Assembly (NCBI RefSeq): GCF_003999255.1
Contig: NZ_CP034791.1
Coordinates: forward strand, 1,962,501-2,026,500
Source of the DNA: Caldicellulosiruptor changbaiensis
GTDB lineage: Bacteria; Bacillota; Thermoanaerobacteria; Caldicellulosiruptorales; Caldicellulosiruptoraceae
DNA: 64,000 bases
Direction of reading: 5' to 3'
The notes under the pieces are model-generated. The model did no database searches, was not told the origin of the DNA, and saw only the letters and a list, made by a program, of their open reading frames with translations. Below are positions 2,214 to 41,864 of this stretch, piece by piece. The position numbers were made by a program, and so were the translations under genes. Numbering within the stretch: the first letter of the stretch is position 1; every line of letters starts with the position of its first letter.

Positions 2214-2861
2214 TTATTTTATTTTATAGCCGCCATTTACTATTACCCATACATCATCAATTGCTTTAAATCCCCTGCCATCGTTCTTGACAATTAGGAC
2301 TAAATGATTTTTAGATATTTGTTGATTATTTCCAATATCCTTTGCCGCTGTTAGATCAATTAAAGATGCTCCTTTCGGAACAGTAGCAGTTGCTTTTCCT
2401 ACCCTTAAAATAAACTCAGTTGAGGCATCAAACACAATAACTTTTCCTTTTGGCACTTTTACTATTTCATATCCTTTTGTCAAAGCAAACTCACTTTTCG
2501 CCTGACCTTGTCCTTGTGCTTGAACTTTTAACTTGGCTTCTAAATCAGATACTTGTTTTCTTAGTTTTTCCACTTCTAAATTCAAATTAGAAAGCTGTTT
2601 TTGGAGCTGGATCACATCTGTACTACTCTGTGAAGCATTACTTGCTTTGCTAATTTTACTATCTAATTCATTTATCTTCGAATCTATGTAAGTTTTTAGC
2701 TGGTCAAGTTGCTTTTTAAAAAACCCGTATGTTATAAGAGCATCATTATCAATTGACTGACTGCTTGCAAAAATTACCGCTGCCCCCAATACTATTATCA
2801 CAATAGCAATAACTGTAACATTTATACCTTTTTTATACCAGCGCCTTCTTTCTTTTTCCAA
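2214..2861 (-). CDS. Membrane-anchored coiled-coil protein of unknown function
   Basis: I do not recognise a family. The 215-residue protein has a basic N-terminus, one membrane segment (about residues 14-33), a long heptad-rich stretch (about 45-115, including [16 protein letters not shown]) and a C-terminal domain of about 85 residues ending [12 protein letters not shown]. The start is TTG at 2861, preceded by GGAGGG. It lies inside the 3' end of mazF, so the genes overlap by 40 bases and are probably translationally coupled. It is followed by ccdA. A surface scaffold or sensor anchored outside the membrane would fit, but this is a guess. Confidence 0.7.
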
Positions 2862-3268
2862 TCGTATCCCTCCGCTGTCCAGTCTATCAATCCAAGGCTA
2901 ATTAAAATTGCTTGATTTACCTTTTCCATAACTTCCTCAGAGAGCTTTCCAACCTTGTTCTTTAGCCTTACCTTGTCAATTGTTCTTATCTGCTCAAGCA
3001 AAATAACAGAGTCTTTTGTAAGGCCAAACTCTCCTGCATGAATTTCAACATGAGTTGGAAACTTTGCCTTGCCAATCTGCGAGGTTATCGCAGCAACAAT
3101 TACTGTTGGACTGTATTTATTTCCTATGTCATTTTGAATTACCAGTACAGGCCGTATGCCACCTTGCTCAGACCCAACATGCGGAGCAAGGTCGGCATAG
3201 AATATGTCTCCTCTTTTAATTTCAAATGTCTGATTTTGGTTTTGATGTTGTTGCAGCACTTTTTCCAC
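2822..3268 (-). CDS. mazF: MazF/PemK-type endoribonuclease toxin
   Basis: The core [20 protein letters not shown] followed by [10 protein letters not shown] is diagnostic of the MazF/NdoA family of single-strand mRNA interferases. The family arginine and threonine are present in GGIRPVLV and AAITSQ. The gene as drawn begins at GTG 3268, which overlaps the upstream antitoxin-like gene by 47 bases. Family members usually start about 17 residues later, so the N-terminal tail QQHQNQNQ is suspect; a second in-frame GTG lies three codons in. The C-terminal extension after GLIDW is short. It cuts mRNA when free of its antitoxin. Confidence 0.92.
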
Positions 3269-3542
3269 TCTCCGCTACCCTACCTTCTTCAAATTTATAA
3301 AAATCATGGTATAAATCATCATATATTATATTCTCATACTTTACAAGTCCCTCAAAGTCAAGAGCTAACCATTCATTTGCAATTGTCCTGTTTAAATCTG
3401 CATACTTTTTATAACAACTCTCAAGTTCCTTCTCAATTCTCCTCATCCTTCTTTTTATCGCAAAAGGTTTTATAAATCCATCATCATAAAAATTTCCACC
3501 GCGATATTGCAAAAGATATTTTACAATACGTATCTGCGGCAT
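3222..3542 (-). CDS. Probable antitoxin of the MazF pair
   Basis: The gene sits directly upstream of mazF and overlaps its start, the usual antitoxin position. Residues [16 protein letters not shown] resemble the C-terminal toxin-wrapping segment of Bacillus EndoAI (INLTIASE...). The N-terminal half ([17 protein letters not shown], then basic helices) does not look like the normal ribbon-helix-helix DNA-binding domain. ATG at 3542 follows AAGGGGG. The assignment rests on position and the C-terminal similarity; the DNA-binding part is unassigned. Confidence 0.65.
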
Positions 3543-3612
3543 CTAATTTCCCCCTTGCAAAACAAAATATAAAAACATATTTATAAAAGGTATAGCGGAT
3601 GAGCTTATCTTC

Positions 3613-3642
3613 ATTATAAATTTTTTTGGTGCTTTAAATCAA
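3613..3642 (-). promoter_or_regulatory. Promoter for the antitoxin-mazF operon
   Basis: On the minus strand TTGATT (3642-3637) and TATAAT (3618-3613) are separated by 18 bases, giving a sigma-A-type promoter about 70 bases ahead of the antitoxin ATG. Confidence 0.6.
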
Positions 3643-3652
3643 TGTAAATTTT

Positions 3653-4816
3653 TCATAAGATGTAGTTTAATATTTTGACAACTCGCCCATCCCTGATATA
3701 AACACGTGGAATTCTCTTGCTGACAGAGCATATCACTTCATAGTTTATAGTGCCAATTTGTGAAGCTAAATCATCTGCTGTAATCTCATTTTTCCCTTGC
3801 TTCCCTATAATTACAACCTCATCACCAATCTTGACATCTTTAATATGAGTAACATCCACCATGCACTGGTCCATGCATACATTCCCTACAACTTTTGCAT
3901 ACTCTCCATTGATGAGAACACATCTTTTTTCACTTCCAACTCTTGTAAAACCATCAGCATATCCGATAGGTATCGTAGCAATCTTGCTCTTGCAAGGAGT
4001 CACATACCTTCTGTTGTAGCTTATAGGATACCCTTCTGGCACCTCCTTTACATTGATTACTTTTGCCTTGACAGACATAACAGGTTTCAAGGAAATTTCT
4101 GTTTTTACTGCTTCGCTCGGATAAAGTCCATAAAGTACAAGACCAAGCCTTACTATATCAAGTTGATACTGGGGGAAACGGATTGCCGCAGCGCTATTTG
4201 CAATATGCTTATATTTAAAGTATACCCCATTTTTATTTAGTTCTTTCACAAAGTTTTCAAATTTTAAAAACTGTTCATAGGTAAAATTATCAGAGTGTGG
4301 GTCATCTGCTGACGAAAAGTGTGAAAATATGCCTTCAAGTTCTATGTGTGAAAGGCTTGCAATTCTGATTATTGCTTCGATACTTTCTTTGGTACACAAG
4401 AATCCAATTCTTCCCATGCCAGTATCAACTTTGATATGTACTTTTGCCTTTTTACCTATCTTTTTAGCTGCCTCATTTAGATAATATGCTTGCTCAAATG
4501 TGTACACTGTTTGGCTAATGTCATTTTCAACAACCTGTTCAGATAATTCAAAAGGAGTAAATCCTAATATCAAAATAGGAATGTCAAAATTATAGTGCCT
4601 AAGCTGCAAAGCCTCGTCTATTATTGCAACAGCAAGCATGTTAATTCCGTTTTTGACTAAAACCCTTGACACTTCAATTGCTCCATGGCCATATGCATCG
4701 GCTTTAACAACAGCCATAATCTGAGTATTTGGCGAAATCTTTTCTTTGATGTTATTAACATTGTATATGAGGTTGTCAAGATTTATCTCTGCCCAGACAC
4801 GGTTGTAAAGAGACAA
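3653..4816 (-). CDS. alr: Alanine racemase
   Basis: A PLP enzyme that interconverts L- and D-alanine for peptidoglycan. AVVKADAYGHG (about residues 35-45) holds the Schiff-base lysine, GYADGF and CMDQCMVDVT belong to the C-terminal beta domain, and RLGLVLYGLYP is also conserved. The 387-residue length is normal. The start is TTG at 4816 with AAAGGAAA close upstream; no earlier in-frame ATG exists. It lies seven bases after a LolA-like lipoprotein gene and downstream of nnr and acpS, a cluster common in Firmicutes, where alr often sits next to mazEF as it does here. Confidence 0.96.
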   Translation of the reverse strand: MSLYNRVWAEINLDNLIYNVNNIKEKISPNTQIMAVVKADAYGHGAIEVSRVLVKNGINMLAVAIIDEALQLRHYNFDIPILILGFTPFELSEQVVENDISQTVYTFEQAYYLNEAAKKIGKKAKVHIKVDTGMGRIGFLCTKESIEAIIRIASLSHIELEGIFSHFSSADDPHSDNFTYEQFLKFENFVKELNKNGVYFKYKHIANSAAAIRFPQYQLDIVRLGLVLYGLYPSEAVKTEISLKPVMSVKAKVINVKEVPEGYPISYNRRYVTPCKSKIATIPIGYADGFTRVGSEKRCVLINGEYAKVVGNVCMDQCMVDVTHIKDVKIGDEVVIIGKQGKNEITADDLASQIGTINYEVICSVSKRIPRVYIRDGRVVKILNYIL

Positions 4817-4823
4817 TTTCCTT

Positions 4824-5339
4824 TCATCCCTTTCTGTATTTTTTATACTCTGTCAGGTAGATTGTCTTTATAAATCTTGCATCCTGATAAATTACAACTA
4901 TTTTTTTTAACCTTTCATCCTCAAAGTAGTAATGCAAATACCTAATATCATCTTTTAATTCAATTGTGATTATTGTGGATTTTTCCTGTTTTACAATAGA
5001 ATATTTTTCGCTATTTATAAGCTTATCAATATAGTATTCCAAAAAAATATCCTCTGCAATGTTTTTTAGATCTTTGCCATCTAATATAACCTTTCCATTT
5101 TCCTTAGTTATCTTTATCTTTCTACTATCTTTCTGAAACTCTGCCTCAACTTTTCCATTTATTCTTTGTTCGAAAAAAAAGTATTTTGAAACCATTTTGT
5201 TTGAAGTTATTTCCACAAATCCTTTTGCAATGTAATCTGGATAGATCTTAAGTGTACCTTGACTATTTCTACTCTTACAAGAGGTAAGTAACATGAAAAT
5301 CAAGAGTATAAAAAATACATAACAAAACCTCTTCCACAT
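4824..5339 (-). CDS. Small LolA-like lipoprotein
   Basis: The 171-residue protein has a signal peptide ending in the lipobox LLTSC, so it should be lipid-anchored on the outer face of the membrane. The rest is mostly beta-strand with alternating charge (GFVEITSNKMVSKYFFFEQ, KIKITKENGKVILDG), which resembles the LolA/GerS half-barrel fold of Firmicute lipoproteins. The position between nnr and alr is conserved in related clostridia, to my recollection. No catalytic residues are visible. Structural assignment is tentative. Confidence 0.65.
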   Translation of the reverse strand: MWKRFCYVFFILLIFMLLTSCKSRNSQGTLKIYPDYIAKGFVEITSNKMVSKYFFFEQRINGKVEAEFQKDSRKIKITKENGKVILDGKDLKNIAEDIFLEYYIDKLINSEKYSIVKQEKSTIITIELKDDIRYLHYYFEDERLKKIVVIYQDARFIKTIYLTEYKKYRKG

Positions 5340-32772: not shown

Positions 32773-33157
32773 GAGATATAAAGGGTTTAGAAAATTGACA
32801 AATAAACAAATCAAATAAATTGACATCTATTTGACACCTATAAGAAAATAACAGAAATTGGTATGCAGTTTAGAAGTGAATATATATATGCGGCAACTAA
32901 ACTTTTACGTCTGGATTACTTCGCAGCTATTCCACAAAGAGGTCTTTGGAAACTAAATTCGCCGGTGTAGTTTAGTTATGAGAAATCATTTTTTATGTGT
33001 TTAAATCAGAAATAGATCTGTATTAAACTTCTTGAAGTTTTGAAATCTCATCAATTGTGTCTGTAACTTATTTAATTTCTTTTTTCTCGATAACTCTACA
33101 ATTTTCATATAGCACAATTCCACAAAAGTTAGAATATAAAAAAAGTGGGGTAACATT
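32773..33157 (+). other. Gap behind tRNA-Arg with a possible gene remnant
   Basis: No complete gene. An open stretch at 32824-32970 encodes a fragment with MQFRSEYIYAATKLLRL followed by AIPQRGLWKLNSPV and a stop. The RGLWKLN ending resembles the winged-helix N-terminal domain of Mrr-type restriction proteins, so this may be the relic of such a gene. The rest is AT-rich, with no integrase or repeat seen. Confidence 0.35.
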
Positions 33158-33997
33158 ATGTTATTTTCGCAAAGAAAGGGATATAAACCACTCAAAAACA
33201 TTATCCAAAAAGATAATATTGATGAAGATTTAAGAAATGGGCTTTGGAATTGTTTTACAAGGTTTTATAAGAAACTCTATCAACTTGATTCTCTTTATAA
33301 TGAATATCTCCTGAAACTTTTAGACTCTATATGGGATAGTTATTTTAAAAAACCCATTGATACAATTCCAAAGATTAGTGAAGCTTATAATTTTCTGAGA
33401 ACATATTTCTTTGAATGTAAATGGTATGAAGTGTACGATTTTATTGAATTTATTCTAAATAACAATGATTTTATTCCCTCTTACTTGTTAATTGAGTTTG
33501 CACGTTCATGTAATAAAGTACTTGAAAGAGAAAATTCTGCGTTTAGAATAATAAATAATAAGTACATAATAGAAATTACTTCTGAGGAAGAAATAAATGC
33601 TATTGAAAATGTATTGAATCTTCCTAATGATTATAAAGTGATAAGGCTCCATCTAGAAGAAGCAATTAAATTATTATCAAATAGAGAGAGTAAAGACCCT
33701 CATAAGTATAGAAATTCTATAAAAGAATCAATAAGTGCTGTCGAAGCAATATGTAGGGAAGTCTCAGGAAAAGATAAGGCAACCTTAGGAGACGCTTTAA
33801 AAGCTATTGCTAAAAATAATGTCATACATCCTGCATTAAAAGAAGCATTTGAAAAATTATATGGATATACGAATGATGCCGAAGGAATAAGGCACGCTTT
33901 ATTAGAGGAACCTAATTTAAACTATGAAGATGCTTTATATATGGTAGTAACTTGTTCTGCTTTTGTGAATTATTTAATTCAAAAATCTAACAAATAA
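33158..33997 (+). CDS. AbiJ-like abortive-infection protein
   Basis: A 279-residue protein that opens FSQRKGYKPLKNIIQ and IDEDLRNGLWNCF, the pattern of the AbiJ N-terminal domain 4. The C-terminal half (IKESISAVEAICREVSGKDK, KLYGYTNDAEGIRHALLEEP, then CSAFVNYLI) is the conserved helical domain found in such proteins, with an R-x-A-L histidine-arginine cluster reminiscent of HEPN proteins. AbiJ-type proteins are linked to phage abortive infection. ATG at 33158 follows GTGGGG. It sits directly behind a tRNA in an accessory segment, consistent with a defence role. Confidence 0.75.
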   Translation: MLFSQRKGYKPLKNIIQKDNIDEDLRNGLWNCFTRFYKKLYQLDSLYNEYLLKLLDSIWDSYFKKPIDTIPKISEAYNFLRTYFFECKWYEVYDFIEFILNNNDFIPSYLLIEFARSCNKVLERENSAFRIINNKYIIEITSEEEINAIENVLNLPNDYKVIRLHLEEAIKLLSNRESKDPHKYRNSIKESISAVEAICREVSGKDKATLGDALKAIAKNNVIHPALKEAFEKLYGYTNDAEGIRHALLEEPNLNYEDALYMVVTCSAFVNYLIQKSNK

Positions 33998-34374
33998 CTC
34001 CATACTTATATTAATACTTGTAGAGCCTAATAAATACAATCAAGTTTTTAATTGAGGGGGCAATTATTACGCTTTATGGACAACATGAATATTTTTTATC
34101 AAAAATTTAAGAGTCTGTGGAATAAAACCGACCTGAACAAATAAACAAAATTATCAGATTAAGCAATAAAGAGATATTAATAAAAATGCTTTCCTCCCTG
34201 AGTTAAAATCATAGTAAAAACTCCAAAATAATAATAGTGAAGAGAGTAACGACTATCTTTATTAAAAAGTACAAAAGCAAAATTTTAAAACGGTAATACT
34301 AATAAATAGAAAACAAACAAAATTATTCCAGATGATTTCTCGCAAGAAGGATGGTTTAACTTAAATACACAAAA
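33998..34374. other. Gap with a possible C-terminal gene relic
   Basis: No intact gene. At 34126-34206 the plus strand reads PEQINKIIRLSNKEILIKML and a stop, preceded in frame by a stop. This resembles the helical tail (DUF4351-like) of Rpn/PD-(D/E)XK transposase-type proteins, but it is very short. Nothing else is recognisable. Confidence 0.25.
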
Positions 34375-34837
34375 TTATTTACAGACCCTAACACTTTGGC
34401 ATATATTTTTTATAAGAGATTTATATTTGGGTATATCTAACAAGCTGCCTGTGCAGAGATAGTTCTCTCTGCTGTCAATTAGAAAAATATCAGGATTATA
34501 TATCTTTCCCTTTTTATCAAACTCTACTATTACATTGAAGTTTTGAAACAAGTTTTCAGATGATACAGGTAACTTCATTGCTTCTGTCTTACCGTTTTTT
34601 GACCAGCTATAATTTTTTTGCTTCAACATTTGTTTCTCTAATCAATTTTTTCAATTTTGAACTATTTGGATACCTCCAGAGAGGTAAAATTGATTTTTCA
34701 TCATCGACCAATAAAATGCCCATTCTGTCTTTAAGAATTTTTAACAATGGTTTTATTTTATTTGCGAACCAAGCTCTTTCAACATATTCAATATATCCTG
34801 TGTTAAATAGTTTCTCATCAGAAAATTTTCCTCCCAA
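34375..34837 (-). pseudogene. Frameshifted gene of unknown function
   Basis: Two overlapping minus-strand frames form one interrupted protein. The first (34837-34607) ends RETNVEAKKL; the second (34629-34375) continues NYSWSKNGKTEAMKL. Removing one A from the seven-A run near 34613 joins them as RETNVEAKNYSWSKNG. The joined product is about 150 residues, with ILLVDDEKSILPLWRY and KIYNPDIFLIDSRENYLC. I do not recognise the family. No good start codon is visible, so the N-terminus may also be lost. It is the last gene of the MoxR-VWA array. Confidence 0.6.
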
Positions 34838-34895
34838 ACCTTCATTTTTAAAATAGTTAAAATATTGTCGATAATATAGTAATAATGAGATTAAT

Positions 34896-36380
34896 TTACA
34901 ATACGAGTTCTATATCTTCCTCTTGTTTTATGGTCTGTACAATTTCTTCTTTTAATAATTCATTTATCAAATCATTTGGCATTGCTCCTTCGCATGTAGC
35001 AAAGATCTCTGGAATAACATCTTTACCATATAATATTTTTTGTATACTATTCCAGCTAAATTCAAAACTTGCCATATCTTTAATTTTAAAAACAACTGGC
35101 TTATGCGCGTATTCAGGTTTCTTGGCAAATTCAATCTCAAGCATTAACTCTCTATTAGTATTTGCTATCAGCTTATCCAATGTAGTTTTAAACTCCGTAG
35201 TATTATCTACAGTTCTGATTAGCGGTTGAAGAGTATAATTACCATCAGATTTTAGAGTTATCTCAAACTTAAGGCAGCTATGTTTAGCATAACAGAAATA
35301 ATTGCATTTAATCTTTACATTTTTGTTTTTAAATTTCTGTAAATCTTCGTTATTCAAAACTTCAAGCCTGTGTTCTCTACAGAGGTACTCTGTTCTAAAA
35401 ATAAGCTTATTGTTACTACTGTCATCTAAAACTTTTATTAAAAAAGCTACTTCTTCTCCCGTTTTAGTAGTACAAGATTCAACTGAATATTTGCATTTCC
35501 TGTTACTTTTGACATATTTCAAAAAAACATTTATTAAACATTGAACTATATCTTGCATATAAGCAGATGCCAGACCAAACCATTCTGCTGTTCTTTTTTC
35601 TGAACAAACATTGAGCCCTGAAGGTTCAATTGGAATCAAAAATGTCTCTCCCCATTTTAATAGCATGTCTTTAACTTTATGATTTACTAAAGAAAAAAGC
35701 GTTTTAGTCTGGTCATCAGGATTGAACTCCTTCGCTTTAAGCGCTGGAGAAGTTATCCAAATTATGTCATTAGTAAGTTGTTGATAATGAAAATAACTTT
35801 TTAGTCCATACATAACTTCATAAATTGTATCTATGAATAATTTTCTTATTACTTCATAGCCTTTTTCTGTTTGCCTTATAAAAATAAAATAAGGAAAAAT
35901 TTTTATTTTGTTTTCCATTTTTTCGAGGTTAAGTTCATCACTAAACTTGACAAAACACCACCACTTGTCTTTTTCAAAAGTATATAAGTAACCTCCAATA
36001 AAAATAGTGTTATTTTTCTTCTTTTTCTGTGGTTTATCCCAGTTAGTGTAAATCATATAAACTTTTGAACTTCTCTCATCAGTATTGCTGCATGGCACTC
36101 CAATAATACTTTTACCATTGAACTCTGGAATGTAAGCCTTTGCTATTTTTTTAGTAACAATATCAACACGGTACATCTTATACTCTTTCTTCGAAAGCAA
36201 GTATTCAAAAAGAGATATACTTTTTTTGCCAGTGTTTATATCACAAAGATAACCTATTATTTTTTCGTGGTTGCGATAGTTATCAAAGTTACAAAAAACT
36301 TCATTGTCTATGTCAATATTATATTTTCTGAGTTCTTGTTTTGCATAATCTATTTTTTGACTGATATACTCAGAAATCAA
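34896..36380 (-). CDS. Unknown 494-residue protein of the MoxR-VWA array
   Basis: I recognise no domain. The protein has no signal peptide or membrane segment. Features are an N-terminal helical stretch (ISEYISQKIDYAKQELRKY), a central GGYLYTFEKDKWWCFVKF segment with repeated aromatic residues, cysteine-rich IKCNYFCYAKHSCLKFEI and a C-terminal acidic tail (EEDIELVL). It follows the MoxR ATPase by 50 bases on the same strand. By analogy with MoxR-VWA systems that have a third, system-specific protein, it could be the effector or substrate-recognition partner; this is inference from position. Confidence 0.7.
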   Translation of the reverse strand: MISEYISQKIDYAKQELRKYNIDIDNEVFCNFDNYRNHEKIIGYLCDINTGKKSISLFEYLLSKKEYKMYRVDIVTKKIAKAYIPEFNGKSIIGVPCSNTDERSSKVYMIYTNWDKPQKKKKNNTIFIGGYLYTFEKDKWWCFVKFSDELNLEKMENKIKIFPYFIFIRQTEKGYEVIRKLFIDTIYEVMYGLKSYFHYQQLTNDIIWITSPALKAKEFNPDDQTKTLFSLVNHKVKDMLLKWGETFLIPIEPSGLNVCSEKRTAEWFGLASAYMQDIVQCLINVFLKYVKSNRKCKYSVESCTTKTGEEVAFLIKVLDDSSNNKLIFRTEYLCREHRLEVLNNEDLQKFKNKNVKIKCNYFCYAKHSCLKFEITLKSDGNYTLQPLIRTVDNTTEFKTTLDKLIANTNRELMLEIEFAKKPEYAHKPVVFKIKDMASFEFSWNSIQKILYGKDVIPEIFATCEGAMPNDLINELLKEEIVQTIKQEEDIELVL

Positions 36381-36430
36381 TTACATTATCCTCCCCTCAT
36401 TGAACAATTATTTAAAAAATAAAATATATC

Positions 36431-37933
36431 TCATGATTTTTTTATGCTTCCCAGCAATCCCTCTATTGCCTCATCGGTAGTTAAAAGTTCTTTAAGCTTA
36501 TCGCTTTCTACCATCGTATTAAAAACTATAGCAAAAACACTTTTGAGGTTTTTTTGAAACTTACCTTGACCAGATACAATAGTGTTTAGAATTTCTTTTT
36601 CAAAAACAGAATAATTTAAATACCTTCCTAAGTGACTTGTTCTCATCTGTTCTATTTCGTTAATTTTCTCAATAGTATTTTGATAATTAAGACCATTGCC
36701 AAGAATATCGCTGAATAAACCACCAATGAGAATTGATTTACCCAAAAATTCCCTAAAGTCATCCCAGTTCTTGAATCGTAACTTCTCGTCATGCATCTCA
36801 CGCGAAAAAATTGCATAAATCATATTAGACATATTTTGGTTATTTTCTCTGCAAAGTATATCTGCAAACTTCTTAAAAGTCTCAAAAACTTTTTGGTCTT
36901 TCAATATTTTGTTAAACTCTTTTATTGATTGAGGTAGATAAGATACCAACATTATAGGCATAACTAGTTTGTCAAAATTATCTAATCCTTCATATCTTGC
37001 TTTTACAGTTTCAAAATCCCCTTCTTTAAGAGCATTTAAAATTTCTCCGGAAACTGTTAGATAATGGATTATTTTTGAACATTTATCTTTATCAGCACCA
37101 AAGAAACTTTCAGCTAAAAAACTAACAAACTCTCTCCGTTCAGTGTTATACGGAGTTCGGAAATTTATGCCATTTACAATGCACGCTTTAATAAAGTATT
37201 CTGCAGAACGCGGCGTTAAATAATTTTGAGTACCTTTTATTTTTGAAATTCCACTTTCAGCCATAACTCTGCCAATATATTCAAAAACGTGTTGTGGTAT
37301 CTCTCTCCACTTATCAGACATATAATTTACCCATGCGTCCTTGTCAAATACCACCTGGATAGTTTGAAACCTGTTGACAAGAGATTCAGGCAAATCATTT
37401 GCAAGCTCACTAAACTCAGGAGGATTACATGCAGAAACAATATGAACCTGTGGATGCAACCTCACATCGCCCACACATTTTTCTGCAATAACCTTGTGGA
37501 GTGCACTAAACATATCAGCCCTTTGAATGTTAGTTATCTCGTCAAGAAATAATATACCTGGATTTTTAACCATCAAAACAACCCATGCTGGAGGGTAATA
37601 TATTGTTTTCCCATCTTCTTTGGCAGGAAGACCCTGAAAATCAATAGGTTCTATAATTGATAGATTCACATTATGAAAGATAAAGGCTTTTTTCTCGCCA
37701 GTTTCGTATGGTTTAAGGTGCTTTGGCAGCATATCCCTTATTTTTGAAGTATCTAAAAACTCAAGGTTAAGCCTTTCGGCAATTTCTCGTGCTAATTGGT
37801 GTATGCTCTCTGTTTTACCTATACCCGCAGCAGAACTTATCAGTATAGCAGGAATTTCTAACCCTTTATTGTATGCGTTTAGATAATAATCTCTGTAAAA
37901 CTTATTAAATTTGCCAAGAGGAATAACAGACAC
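36431..37933 (-). CDS. MoxR-type AAA+ ATPase
   Basis: A 500-residue AAA+ protein. Walker A is SSAAGIGKTES, Walker B is GILFLDEIT with the ring-insert PAKEDGKTIYYPP before it, sensor 1 is HIVSACNPPEF and the arginine-finger region is LPESLVNRFQ. The C-terminal 250 residues are helical and specific to this subgroup. I place the start at GTG 37933 behind AAAGGGGG; the longer reading from 38023 overlaps the upstream gene and lacks a site. MoxR ATPases act as chaperones that remodel or load metals onto partner complexes, often with a VWA protein such as the one encoded immediately upstream. Confidence 0.9.
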   Translation of the reverse strand: MSVIPLGKFNKFYRDYYLNAYNKGLEIPAILISSAAGIGKTESIHQLAREIAERLNLEFLDTSKIRDMLPKHLKPYETGEKKAFIFHNVNLSIIEPIDFQGLPAKEDGKTIYYPPAWVVLMVKNPGILFLDEITNIQRADMFSALHKVIAEKCVGDVRLHPQVHIVSACNPPEFSELANDLPESLVNRFQTIQVVFDKDAWVNYMSDKWREIPQHVFEYIGRVMAESGISKIKGTQNYLTPRSAEYFIKACIVNGINFRTPYNTERREFVSFLAESFFGADKDKCSKIIHYLTVSGEILNALKEGDFETVKARYEGLDNFDKLVMPIMLVSYLPQSIKEFNKILKDQKVFETFKKFADILCRENNQNMSNMIYAIFSREMHDEKLRFKNWDDFREFLGKSILIGGLFSDILGNGLNYQNTIEKINEIEQMRTSHLGRYLNYSVFEKEILNTIVSGQGKFQKNLKSVFAIVFNTMVESDKLKELLTTDEAIEGLLGSIKKS

Positions 37934-37982
37934 ATAAAAACCCCCTTTAACACCTGAGTAACTTTTTATGACGAAATTAAAC

Positions 37983-39689
37983 TTATGAATCTGTAAAAGA
38001 CTCATCTTTGTTAAACACAACACAAGCAGGTAATTCCGGTATTTTAGCCTTTTTGGTTGTATTGAAAATTAAAATTGTGTTACCTGTTTTTCGAGATATT
38101 TCAATAAGAGTTTTTTTGGTTTCCTCTTCACATATATCGCTAATATACATGTCAGAAATAATAAATACTACATCTCTCCACTTTACGCGTTTGCTAACGT
38201 CCTCAAGTGCAGGCTTTATAACAGTTCCACCGCCGCCTTTTAGATTTGCCAATGCTTTTCTTATATCACTCTCTGTCTTTATCTTAATAGGTGCATATAC
38301 AGCAGCATCCCAACAAATTATTTGTGATTCTACATTATGTTTATTTAATTCGTTTGCAATATCTGCACATGTTGTAATACTGTCTGAATCCATAGAACCA
38401 CTCGTATCAACCAGGATAAATGCCCTGTTTGCTCTTGAGAAAAACCCAATACTTGGAAAATCATCACCTACCCTTCGCGAAGGCCGATTGTAATTGCTAA
38501 AAACTTTTTTACCATGATAACTATTCACTGTTATTCTAACAAACTTATTCCAATCTCTTTTCATTTTTTTCTTTTTCCATTTATCAATACAAATTTTCAA
38601 ACCTGCTGGAACATAGCCGGATGCCATTCCACTTAATACCTCCAGAATTTTATCCAATAGTTGCTCTATAGTATTATCTGCAACTTGCTGGTCTTTCTTA
38701 CCTATTCCTCCGTCTTGAATAGTTCTACTCTGTCTTATTAGCATTTCTAACCTTTTTTGTGAAACTTGTCCACTTGACAGTTCACGTGAAAGAATTACTT
38801 TTTCGTTTACCTCTACTCTTTTTCCTATTGTCAATTCTTGAAGTTCGTTGTTATTAGAATCCAACCGTAAAGAGTCTTCCAAACTTTGCACTTCTCTAAA
38901 TAATTGATTCTCACTACTGCAAATAATCATCTTCTCCTCTTTTTTAGATTGGTGAGTTTTTCTCAGCTGGTTAACACCTGAAATATATACTTCAAAAGGT
39001 TCTTTCCAATCGAAATCACCCTCTTTTATGTTATATATTATCTTATATACTTTTTCCCTGTTAGATGAAAAAGGAAATAACCCAGCTGAAATGCCGAATT
39101 CAATTGCCTTCTTAACATTCTCGGGTTTAAAAATGCCACTTTTCAGCAAAACAGAATTTCGGATATAGTTACTAAAGAAACTTAATTTGGCACTATTTTC
39201 AAAATATTTCTCCACCACCCATCTGTTTATAACGTAATCTTGGAATATATTAGTTAAGCTGTTTATTTCCTCGGTTGTAAGTAGAGATTTATAAACTTGA
39301 TGTATAGTTTTAACTTCTCTCACATGTTCCATCAACACATGCGACTCTTCATGGAGTATCAAAGCTTTTACGTCGTTTTTGAAATAAATATTTACTGCAG
39401 CATTATCATAAAGCCCTTTATAAGTTTCAAGAAGTCCTTTAAGCAGGGCTGGATTTATATAAATTCGGTAATCTTCAGATGTAAACGCACTGGTAATAGC
39501 ATCGGGGGGAGTAATTTCAATAGATGCTATTGTCAATAAGAATCTAATCGCTGGATTTGCTTCACTTGAGACAATTTCGTCATATATGGCTTTAAAACGT
39601 TGACTAAATTCGTCAGGATTATATCCTTCTTTTATAAGGTTTTCAAAACCTCTTTTTATTACAACTCCTAAGTCAAAAATCTCCGGCAT
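37983..39689 (-). CDS. Putative metallopeptidase-VWA fusion protein
   Basis: A 568-residue protein. The N-terminal domain has a zinc motif, HEESH at residues 113-117, with NIFQDYVIN near 147-155 as a possible third-ligand region. A charged linker (about 230-400) leads to a C-terminal VWA domain (about 423-568) with the metal-ion-dependent adhesion site: DTSGSMDSD, a conserved threonine in KGGGGTVIKP and a late aspartate in VVFIISDMY. This order matches the DUF2201/COG3864 family found beside MoxR ATPases. ATG at 39689 follows GGGGG. The 277-base gap upstream separates it from the Ro60-like gene. Confidence 0.85.
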   Translation of the reverse strand: MPEIFDLGVVIKRGFENLIKEGYNPDEFSQRFKAIYDEIVSSEANPAIRFLLTIASIEITPPDAITSAFTSEDYRIYINPALLKGLLETYKGLYDNAAVNIYFKNDVKALILHEESHVLMEHVREVKTIHQVYKSLLTTEEINSLTNIFQDYVINRWVVEKYFENSAKLSFFSNYIRNSVLLKSGIFKPENVKKAIEFGISAGLFPFSSNREKVYKIIYNIKEGDFDWKEPFEVYISGVNQLRKTHQSKKEEKMIICSSENQLFREVQSLEDSLRLDSNNNELQELTIGKRVEVNEKVILSRELSSGQVSQKRLEMLIRQSRTIQDGGIGKKDQQVADNTIEQLLDKILEVLSGMASGYVPAGLKICIDKWKKKKMKRDWNKFVRITVNSYHGKKVFSNYNRPSRRVGDDFPSIGFFSRANRAFILVDTSGSMDSDSITTCADIANELNKHNVESQIICWDAAVYAPIKIKTESDIRKALANLKGGGGTVIKPALEDVSKRVKWRDVVFIISDMYISDICEEETKKTLIEISRKTGNTILIFNTTKKAKIPELPACVVFNKDESFTDS

Positions 39690-39966
39690 AATTTACCCCC
39701 CAATTTCTTCTTTAACTGTTTTTTTAATCATAAATAAACTATAGTCTTATATCCCTATTTACTGTTAACACATTGTGCTCTATATTTTAGTAGTGTTTTA
39801 CTTTTCTATTGCTGCTAAAAATTTATATTATTTATTTCTGTTCTATGATAATTTAGAAAAAATAAATATATCAAGTAAGTTCTCTCTTAGGTCGCATAAT
39901 ATATTTTCAGTTTATAATTTTTTGCTTTTAGACTATAAGTGTAAGATAAGAGTAATGTTTGCCAAA

Positions 39967-41411
39967 CTATATTTCATATTTTTTTATCCTATCAACCAAT
40001 GTTGTTACGCCATGCTCAGCAAGAGGTATAAACTCCAACACCTTTTCACTCCATCCGGCTATAATGTTAACTTTATCTCCTTTGAACTGCTGTGTGCCAT
40101 ATCCTTCCAAATCAACAGCATGAACCCATACGTTTGGATTTATCATCTTTCGGTACCTGTCAACAAGTTTCTGGCACACATAGTCAAAATCAACATTGAT
40201 TTGATTATCACTGAAAATAATAATTCTGTCAACAAATATATTATTTTTAAGAAGATATTTTATGGGCAAATTAATATCAGTACCGCCACCCGTAATCGGT
40301 ATGTTCTTTGCATTAGCTATAATATTACCATTCGGGTCAAGAACAACTTTTTTAAGCTCTGTGTCAAATGTAACTGTTATGGTATCCTCACATATATAGT
40401 TTGCCATTGCCAAGAAAAGCACTGCTATATCTGCCACACTAAAAGAAGACTCTCTTGAAAGCCTTGTCCATGCCATAGAAGCTGATACATCAGCTGCTAT
40501 AAACGTCTTTCCTACAAGTTTTGGTATGTTTTTTATAGACTTTTTCAGAACTTCTCCCAAAACTGCATACAGATTATTTGTTCTCAAATGTGAATTTTCA
40601 AGCTCTCTGTGTGCAGCAAAAAACCTGAATGGCAAAACTTTGCTGCCTTCTATTCGTTTTTCATCCAAAAGTATTTCATATACTCTATCAATATTCGAAA
40701 CACTTGCTTTTGACTATACTTCGAAAGTTTCTCAGAAGTGCCATATAAGGAAGTTTTCCAGAATCAATATGCTCTTCCCAAACTTCTTTTTTGTTGCCCT
40801 TGGTAGATATTTCAGTTTCCCATGTATATGGAGTAGAAAGCTTATTTTCAATTAGTCTTTTCCATAAATCTGCCTGACCACTGTCTCTGGGCTTTGGATG
40901 AAAAATAAATAGAACCCCCCTTAACTTTACAGTAGTACGTCTGTTATCCTTTGCAAGCTGATATTCATCAAATTTATGAAGAGCATCGGTAACACCTTTT
41001 TTAAGAGAATTTGGAATTAGCTTCCATATGTTGAAAGATAATATGAAAGTATTTCGGTCATATCATCAGGTCTTTGACAAACTTTCGGAGTTATTCTTCT
41101 TACATAATGTTTTCCTTCCTGTGCATGTGCAAGCTCTCCGACAGGCACATGAGAAATGCTCCTCATGCCAAACTCGTTTCTTACAAATATTGTAAGTTTT
41201 GCCATAAACTTTAGGTCTTCTTTAATAACCTCTCTAAATTGTCTAAAATCTCTTGTAAATTGTCTCCGTAAAACCTGTCTTCATCAAAAAAAGAAGTCAG
41301 AACTTAAGTTACAAGTTTTTCGACAGATCTCATCTTAAACGCTACATGTCTCTCTTTGTTGGAAGTCAGTTCATCTGGATTATATTCACCCGCTTTTTGA
41401 TTAAATTTCAC
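39967..41411 (-). pseudogene. rsr: Ro60/Rsr (TROVE) ring protein, broken
   Basis: The fragments together spell a TROVE protein of about 480 residues from GTG 41411 (after GGAAGGGATAAGG). In order: TSFFDEDRFYGDN; then AKLTIFVRNEFGMRSISHV and RRITPKVCQRPDDMTEILSY; then IPNSLKKGVTDALHKFDEYQ; then YMALLRNFRSIV; then VLPFRFFAAHRELE and the VWA site AADVSASM with GGGTDINLP. Lesions are an in-frame TAA at 41306-41304, a one-base deletion near 41226, a one-A deletion near 41022 and a one-A insertion at 40708-40711. Only the last 233 codons (39967-40668) form a continuous frame. Ro60 is a ring that binds misfolded RNA and Y RNA; a Y RNA-like sequence lies just upstream. The breaks could be sequencing errors, but the surrounding genes are intact. 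Confidence 0.85.
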
Positions 41412-41574
41412 CCTTATCCCTTCCTTGAATATTCCTCCAAAAACAAAATGAACCAACCCCCATGTATCTCTCTCTTCCGCATTCGAGTTTCAATGGAATA
41501 AAAGCAGCAATGTTTTTCAATTTTTCATATAGGTCAAAAACTGTTTTTTGTCTATTAGCAATACTTAGAAACTC
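41412..41574 (-). other. Leader between the Y RNA and the Ro60-like gene
   Basis: About 160 bases. A 67-codon open frame (41604-41401) crosses it but its start lies inside the Y RNA stem and its sequence has no recognisable family, so I do not call a gene. The end carries the ribosome site for the TROVE frame. Confidence 0.4.
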
Positions 41575-41687
41575 TAAAACAGGGGAAAAAAGCGGAAACA
41601 GCAACCCACCAGAAAACTGGTGAGTGTGGGAGTTGAACCCAATCCTGACTATCTGAAGTACCTGTTTCCTGCACTACCCCTGTCTTA
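41575..41687 (-). ncRNA. Putative Y RNA with tRNA-like module (YrlA type)
   Basis: The two ends pair, as in Y RNAs. AAGACAGGGG (41686-41677) pairs with CCCCTGTTTT (41585-41576) over 10 bases with one G-U; after an internal loop of seven and eight bases, GGAAACAG (41669-41662) pairs with CTGTTTCC (41601-41594) over 8 bases. Inside lie three small arms: ACTTCAGATAGT (41659-41648) in D-arm position, a T-arm mimic TGGG TTCAACT CCCA (41641-41627) and a hairpin CACCAG TTTT CTGGTG (41622-41607). Bacterial YrlA RNAs combine a Ro-binding end stem with a tRNA-like domain and are encoded near rsr; this one lies about 160 bases upstream of the Ro60-like gene on the same strand. Confidence 0.7.
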
Positions 41688-41780
41688 AGCTAACATGCTT
41701 ACATCTTACAGATAACGAAATGAAAAATATTATCCCTTTTTGACCAAAAAAGATTTGCTAAACAAACTTTTATATGTAAT

Positions 41781-41809
41781 ATAATATCACAACTAAACAA
41801 AAATGTAAA
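41781..41809 (-). promoter_or_regulatory. Possible promoter of the Y RNA-Ro60 unit
   Basis: On the minus strand TTTACA (41809-41804) and TATTAT (41786-41781) are 17 bases apart. The predicted start, near 41774, is about 87 bases upstream of the Y RNA stem, so a 5' extension or processing would be needed. Confidence 0.45.
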
Positions 41810-41864
41810 TTAACTTTTTAAAAATGGCTGTTTCTCTTCCATCTAATTTTAACTGCAAACACTT

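Follow-up and report, generated by a model that had tools for sequence, protein, structure and literature searches.

A probable Clostridia-type Y RNA beside a Ro60 pseudogene in Caldicellulosiruptor changbaiensis

What is the highly structured RNA predicted upstream of a broken Ro60 gene in Caldicellulosiruptor changbaiensis, and what could it do in a cell whose genome has no intact Ro60? In bacterial Y RNAs the basal stem binds Rsr/Ro60 and an effector part tethers PNPase, and in Deinococcus the three components Rsr, Y RNA and PNPase form the RNA-degrading RYPER complex (PMC8394870; PMC7790460). A first-pass annotation of the window (the 64,000-nucleotide stretch of contig NZ_CP034791.1 analyzed here, positions 1,962,501 to 2,026,500) had placed a candidate Y RNA on the minus strand at 41575..41687. 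We consider it very likely that this element is a Y RNA of the Clostridia type, its tRNA-like module shortened, in a genome now without an intact Ro60.

Both the strand and the coordinates of the element proved correct. As folded, the RNA is ~113 nt long and has a minimum free energy of -47.0 kcal/mol, against a mean of -28.8 (sd 3.3) for dinucleotide shuffles (z -5.54), with 0 of 200 shuffles matching it. Its 5′ and 3′ ends come together in a long stem interrupted by an internal loop, as is found in bacterial Y RNAs in the broad sense. Two helices separated by a loop had been annotated, of 10 and 8 bp, and this stands: the end helix, between UAAGACAGGGG (41677..41687) and CCCCUGUUUUA (41575..41585), has 11 bp by pair probabilities and covaries in relatives, and the second helix, between GC-A-GGAAACAG (41662..41672) and CUGUUUCC-GC (41592..41601), has 8 bp plus 2 bp over a bulged A, as supported by alignment, covariation and pair probabilities. 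Neither helix contains a mismatch. On its 5′ side the internal loop, UAGU, runs into the GC of the second helix (41671..41676) and the two together include the conserved RGYG, here AGUG, while on its 3′ side it is U-rich (UUUUUU, 41586..41591). A second conserved motif, UACUUC (41655..41660), lies 11 nt past AGUG in every relative aligned, and both motifs are intact in the candidate. Enclosed by this stem are a T-arm mimic, UGGG-UUCAACU-CCCA (41627..41641; pair probabilities 0.71-0.91), and a 9-bp hairpin resembling an acceptor stem, ACUCACCAG-UUUU-CUGGUGGGU (41604..41625; pair probabilities nearly all 0.99-1.0), and these two had been read correctly from the sequence. The D-arm-like hairpin of the original fold is not a D arm; it amounts to only 3 bp with probability 0.59-0.65 and covers the conserved UACUUC segment. 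An alternative pairing of the 3′ GGGUUG with CAACUC, noted at first as possible, has a probability of 0.0. When both strands of the window were scanned, the full Y RNA signature occurred once, at the candidate, with 8/8 and 6/6 pairs; the chance level, with the rules relaxed to 7/8 and 5/6 pairs, was 3 matches in 150 single strands of Markov-random sequence, each of 64 kb.

Is this architecture peculiar to one genome? We compared it with Ro60 loci of Clostridium beijerinckii HUN142 (L005), an uncultured Clostridia bacterium (L006) and nine further Bacillota genomes (L022-L030), in which the RNAs are mostly directly upstream of Ro60 and share one frame. In this frame an end helix is followed by an internal loop, the 5′ side of which carries RGYG and the 3′ side of which is rich in U, and then by a helix of 8 bp; URCUUC comes after RGYG at a distance of exactly 11 nt. 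The candidate, with AGUG, 11 nt and then UACUUC, fits this frame, and it has its frame, motifs, spacing and location in common with Y RNAs that precede Ro60, so far without annotation, in L005, L006, L030/G039, L027 and L028. Its closest relative, by eye, is L030 7485-7580(-), the two having AGTGCAGGAAA and UACUUC in common. The candidate RNA is present in one of 12 genomes of its genus, and no DNA homologue of it was found in the 11 congeners. A pattern scan for the class of RNAs in G039 returned that genome's own copies and four further matches, the latter equal to the chance level of a reversed control pattern. In the L005 locus of C. beijerinckii HUN142 (2523-4924(+)) one Ro60 gene is surrounded by four or more Y RNAs, one of which separates it from a gene for an RtcB ligase; upstream are two large ORFs, and downstream are two genes that resemble nucleotidyltransferases.

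The candidate copy is carried by one genome only, and covariation is therefore a property of its relatives as a set. MAFFT applied to the whole RNAs misplaced their 3′ halves; the helix alignment was instead built by a scripted rule, with slid partner columns as a check. Among 21 distinct sequences, standard pairs filled 94.6% of 294 helix cells, compared with 57.3% after shuffling and 46-57% when the partner column was displaced by 1-3 positions. The percentage of paired cells is biased upward, as relatives bearing the motif were chosen from the vicinity of Ro60 and each was aligned in whichever helix register paired best. The compensatory changes proposed as a check on the annotation are there: double-sided changes occur in 13 of the 14 helix pairs, and the covariation score is 0.988 versus 0.238 for shuffled and 0.16-0.26 for slid columns. 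Selection bias in the alignment leaves unaffected the match of the candidate to an independent covariance model (R1), trained on 12 relatives with the candidate left out. Searched against the window, R1 gave the candidate 48.6 bits (E 4.4e-13) and its next match 12.8 bits; the candidate also ranked first in the genome (E 2e-11) and was the sole strong match in the genus, the other members of which reached at most 23.9 bits. Ro60-linked RNAs on which R1 had not been trained were recovered as well, with 41.2 bits in L027 and 22.4 bits in L025. At E <= 1e-5 it matched four of 398 Bacillota genomes, all four among the ten with a TROVE match, and none of the 388 sampled genomes lacking TROVE; the association is partly built in, as three of the four matched genomes supplied relatives, but the absence from the 388 is not. 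We conclude that the element is a Y RNA because of its covarying frame, its match to R1 and its position adjacent to Ro60.

There is little room for two other readings. That the element is a tRNA pseudogene, as its canonical T-arm letters GGGUUCAACUCCC could suggest, has a negligible chance of being right, given that ARAGORN calls no tRNA and Rfam matches no tRNA at the site, that it is without a D arm or a clear anticodon arm, that its ends pair together as a Y RNA frame, and that it matches the Y RNA model. Hardly more credible is an intrinsic transcription terminator, or another strong hairpin that resembles a Y RNA by chance; a terminator scan does flag two terminator-like stems within the element, but these hairpins sit in a larger covarying structure with fixed-position motifs common to Ro60-linked RNAs, the main U-run lies in the internal loop and is followed by the end-helix strand, and the R1 match argues strongly against it.

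Which kind of Y RNA, then, is it? The answer depends on what the stem encloses, and in this the Bacillota RNAs differ. In the long relatives, UACUUC is followed by an anticodon-like arm, a T arm, an acceptor-like hairpin of 7 to 9 bp, a D arm (UAGCUCAG..GUAGAGC) and the 3′ helix strand, which is the order of a circularly permuted tRNA. The anticodon-like arm has the loop YUGUUAA, with GUU as in tRNA-Asn, in six of 22 sequences. Such nearly complete permuted tRNAs, with an anticodon-like stem-loop that has the loop YUGUUAA, are found in L024 7552-7696(-), L026 5800-5942(+), L029 4795-4934(+) and L030 7765-7905(-), and likewise in the long forms of L022/L023. A different arrangement is seen in L025 7645-7770(-), where the Y RNA frame surrounds an unpermuted tRNA-like cloverleaf with D, anticodon and T arms and without an acceptor stem of its own; this RNA is called a tRNA by Rfam and sits inside a tRNA array upstream of Ro60. 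At the other extreme, L030 7485-7580(-) has a T arm alone, and L005 3071-3152 and both L006 RNAs have no tRNA-like part. The candidate is unlike both the long forms, with their D arm and in some cases an anticodon-like arm, and the short forms that are without a tRNA-like part. Two elements of the tRNA-like part are retained in it, the T arm and the acceptor-like hairpin, but there is no D arm, nor any clear anticodon-like arm; it is thus intermediate between the short and long forms.

It had been proposed that the element is a YrlA RNA, the main papers on which (Chen 2014; Wang 2018) are cited in PMC8394870. In part this identification survives, in that a Y RNA upstream of Ro60 with a covarying frame is what we found. 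The candidate also resembles YrlA (RF02553, of the Salmonella type) in having its ends paired in a long stem, a T-arm mimic with an acceptor-like hairpin 3′ of it in permuted order, and an adjacent Ro60 gene (PMC8394870, PMC7790460). An RNA of the YrlA class would further be expected to undergo modification by TruB/DusA and to bind PNPase. YrlA as Rfam defines it is another matter. Rfam gave nothing at the candidate site at gathering score and no Y RNA match, RF02553 included, in the candidate region at E <= 10. A whole-genome scan with RF02553, the covariance search suggested on first pass as a check, returned ten weak matches, the candidate not among them. This model at its gathering score also misses Ro60-linked RNAs of other Bacillota, including all the long forms of L022/L023, L024, L026, L029 and L030, and L030b scored 33.8 of the 69 bits needed. 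Moreover, the candidate differs from YrlA in its stem frame (the fixed AGUG-11 nt-UACUUC), in its broken Ro60, and in the D-arm mimic of YrlA between the acceptor-like hairpin and the 3′ stem strand, a place in which the candidate has just a few bases. A full YrlA of the Rfam/Salmonella kind, its D, T and acceptor mimics all complete and working with a functional Ro60 in this cell, is accordingly mostly refuted already, notwithstanding the T arm, the acceptor-like hairpin and the Ro60-like sequence downstream, and we regard it as very improbable.

The state of the Ro60 gene is central to what the RNA can do. The Ro60-like gene had been noted at its correct position, on the same strand and ~160 nt downstream of the RNA, but that it is a pseudogene had been missed. 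The sequence (TROVE + vWA; 39967..41412, minus strand) is interrupted near codon 34 by a single in-frame stop, and its frame changes three times or more. Pfam still identifies TROVE in its middle piece (3e-19) and the Ro60 vWA domain in its C-terminal piece (5e-11), and the pieces are 45-61% identical to intact Clostridium Ro60. This is the only place in the genome with TROVE, and so the adjacency to Ro60 that is typical of Y RNAs in the broad sense is here provided by a pseudogene. Sequencing error is an unlikely source of the breaks because several lesions fall within ~650 bases, none of them obviously at a long homopolymer run. A truncated Ro60 occurs in G039 as well (L030 6941-7458(-)), adjoining three well-formed Y RNAs. 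Searches for close relatives of the Ro60 among viral contigs found none, and phages and plasmids gave distant Ro60 only.

How did a Y RNA and a Ro60 gene come to be in this one member of the genus? The gap between pxpC and tRNA-Arg is ~9 kb in the window (32773..41864) and ~0.7 kb in a congener (G004) with an identical outer neighbour, an empty site, and by this comparison the Y RNA/Ro60 unit sits in a strain-specific island. Besides that unit the segment holds three further minus-strand genes, which come after the Ro60 pseudogene (34896-39689). They encode a CoxE-like vWA protein that also has a metallopeptidase-like match, though a weak one, an ATPase that is weakly AAA-like, and a protein of 494 aa without Pfam, NCBIfam or PADLOC match; neither PADLOC nor NCBIfam offered a useful name for any of the three. 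Near the tRNA-Arg end of the island, on the opposite strand, is a 279-aa ORF (33158-33997 (+)), the C-terminal half of which by eye resembles AbiJ/HEPN-type abortive-infection proteins.

We prefer to read the segment as encoding a Y RNA such as those found ahead of Ro60 (Rsr) genes in Bacillota. The stem of two helices, the U-rich internal loop and the fixed AGUG and UACUUC would be the frame to which Ro60 is expected to bind, and the enclosed T arm and acceptor-like hairpin seem to be what is left of a tRNA-like effector module, to which longer relatives add an anticodon-like arm and a D arm; the candidate would thus have part of a module for tethering PNPase. Most likely the island beside tRNA-Arg brought both the RNA and Ro60 with it, and the Ro60 gene probably decayed after arrival. 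The expected job is that of the Y RNA in RYPER of Deinococcus radiodurans (Rsr, Y RNA, PNPase), in which the stem binds Ro60 and the effector part tethers PNPase (PMC8394870), but this genome is without an intact Ro60. With Ro60 broken, a RYPER-type complex with a normal Ro60 cannot form, and therefore the RNA, if transcribed, would be a relic that still folds or would act without an intact Ro60.

Of these, a relic is the more likely. That the decaying island has left both the RNA and Ro60 as remnants without function, the RNA not having lost its fold yet, is a version of our preferred explanation and not a different identity, and we give it somewhat less than an even chance. The broken Ro60 and the occurrence in a single genome of the genus favor it; against it, the RNA helices and AGUG/UACUUC are undamaged versus four or more lesions in Ro60, a weak objection given that a 113-nt target takes few hits. 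That the Y RNA was instead kept and is active after the loss of Ro60, in a job independent of it, for instance via the tRNA-like module or the neighboring vWA/AAA proteins, seems to us doubtful.

Our observations show that Bacillota have a well-defined Y RNA frame that is missed by the public YrlA model, and that the effector parts carried on this frame range from none, through the T arm and acceptor hairpin of the candidate, to a nearly complete permuted tRNA. The genome of C. changbaiensis and G039 are natural cases of Y RNAs adjoining a broken Ro60, and with two such genomes at hand it becomes testable whether Y RNAs can function independently of Ro60.
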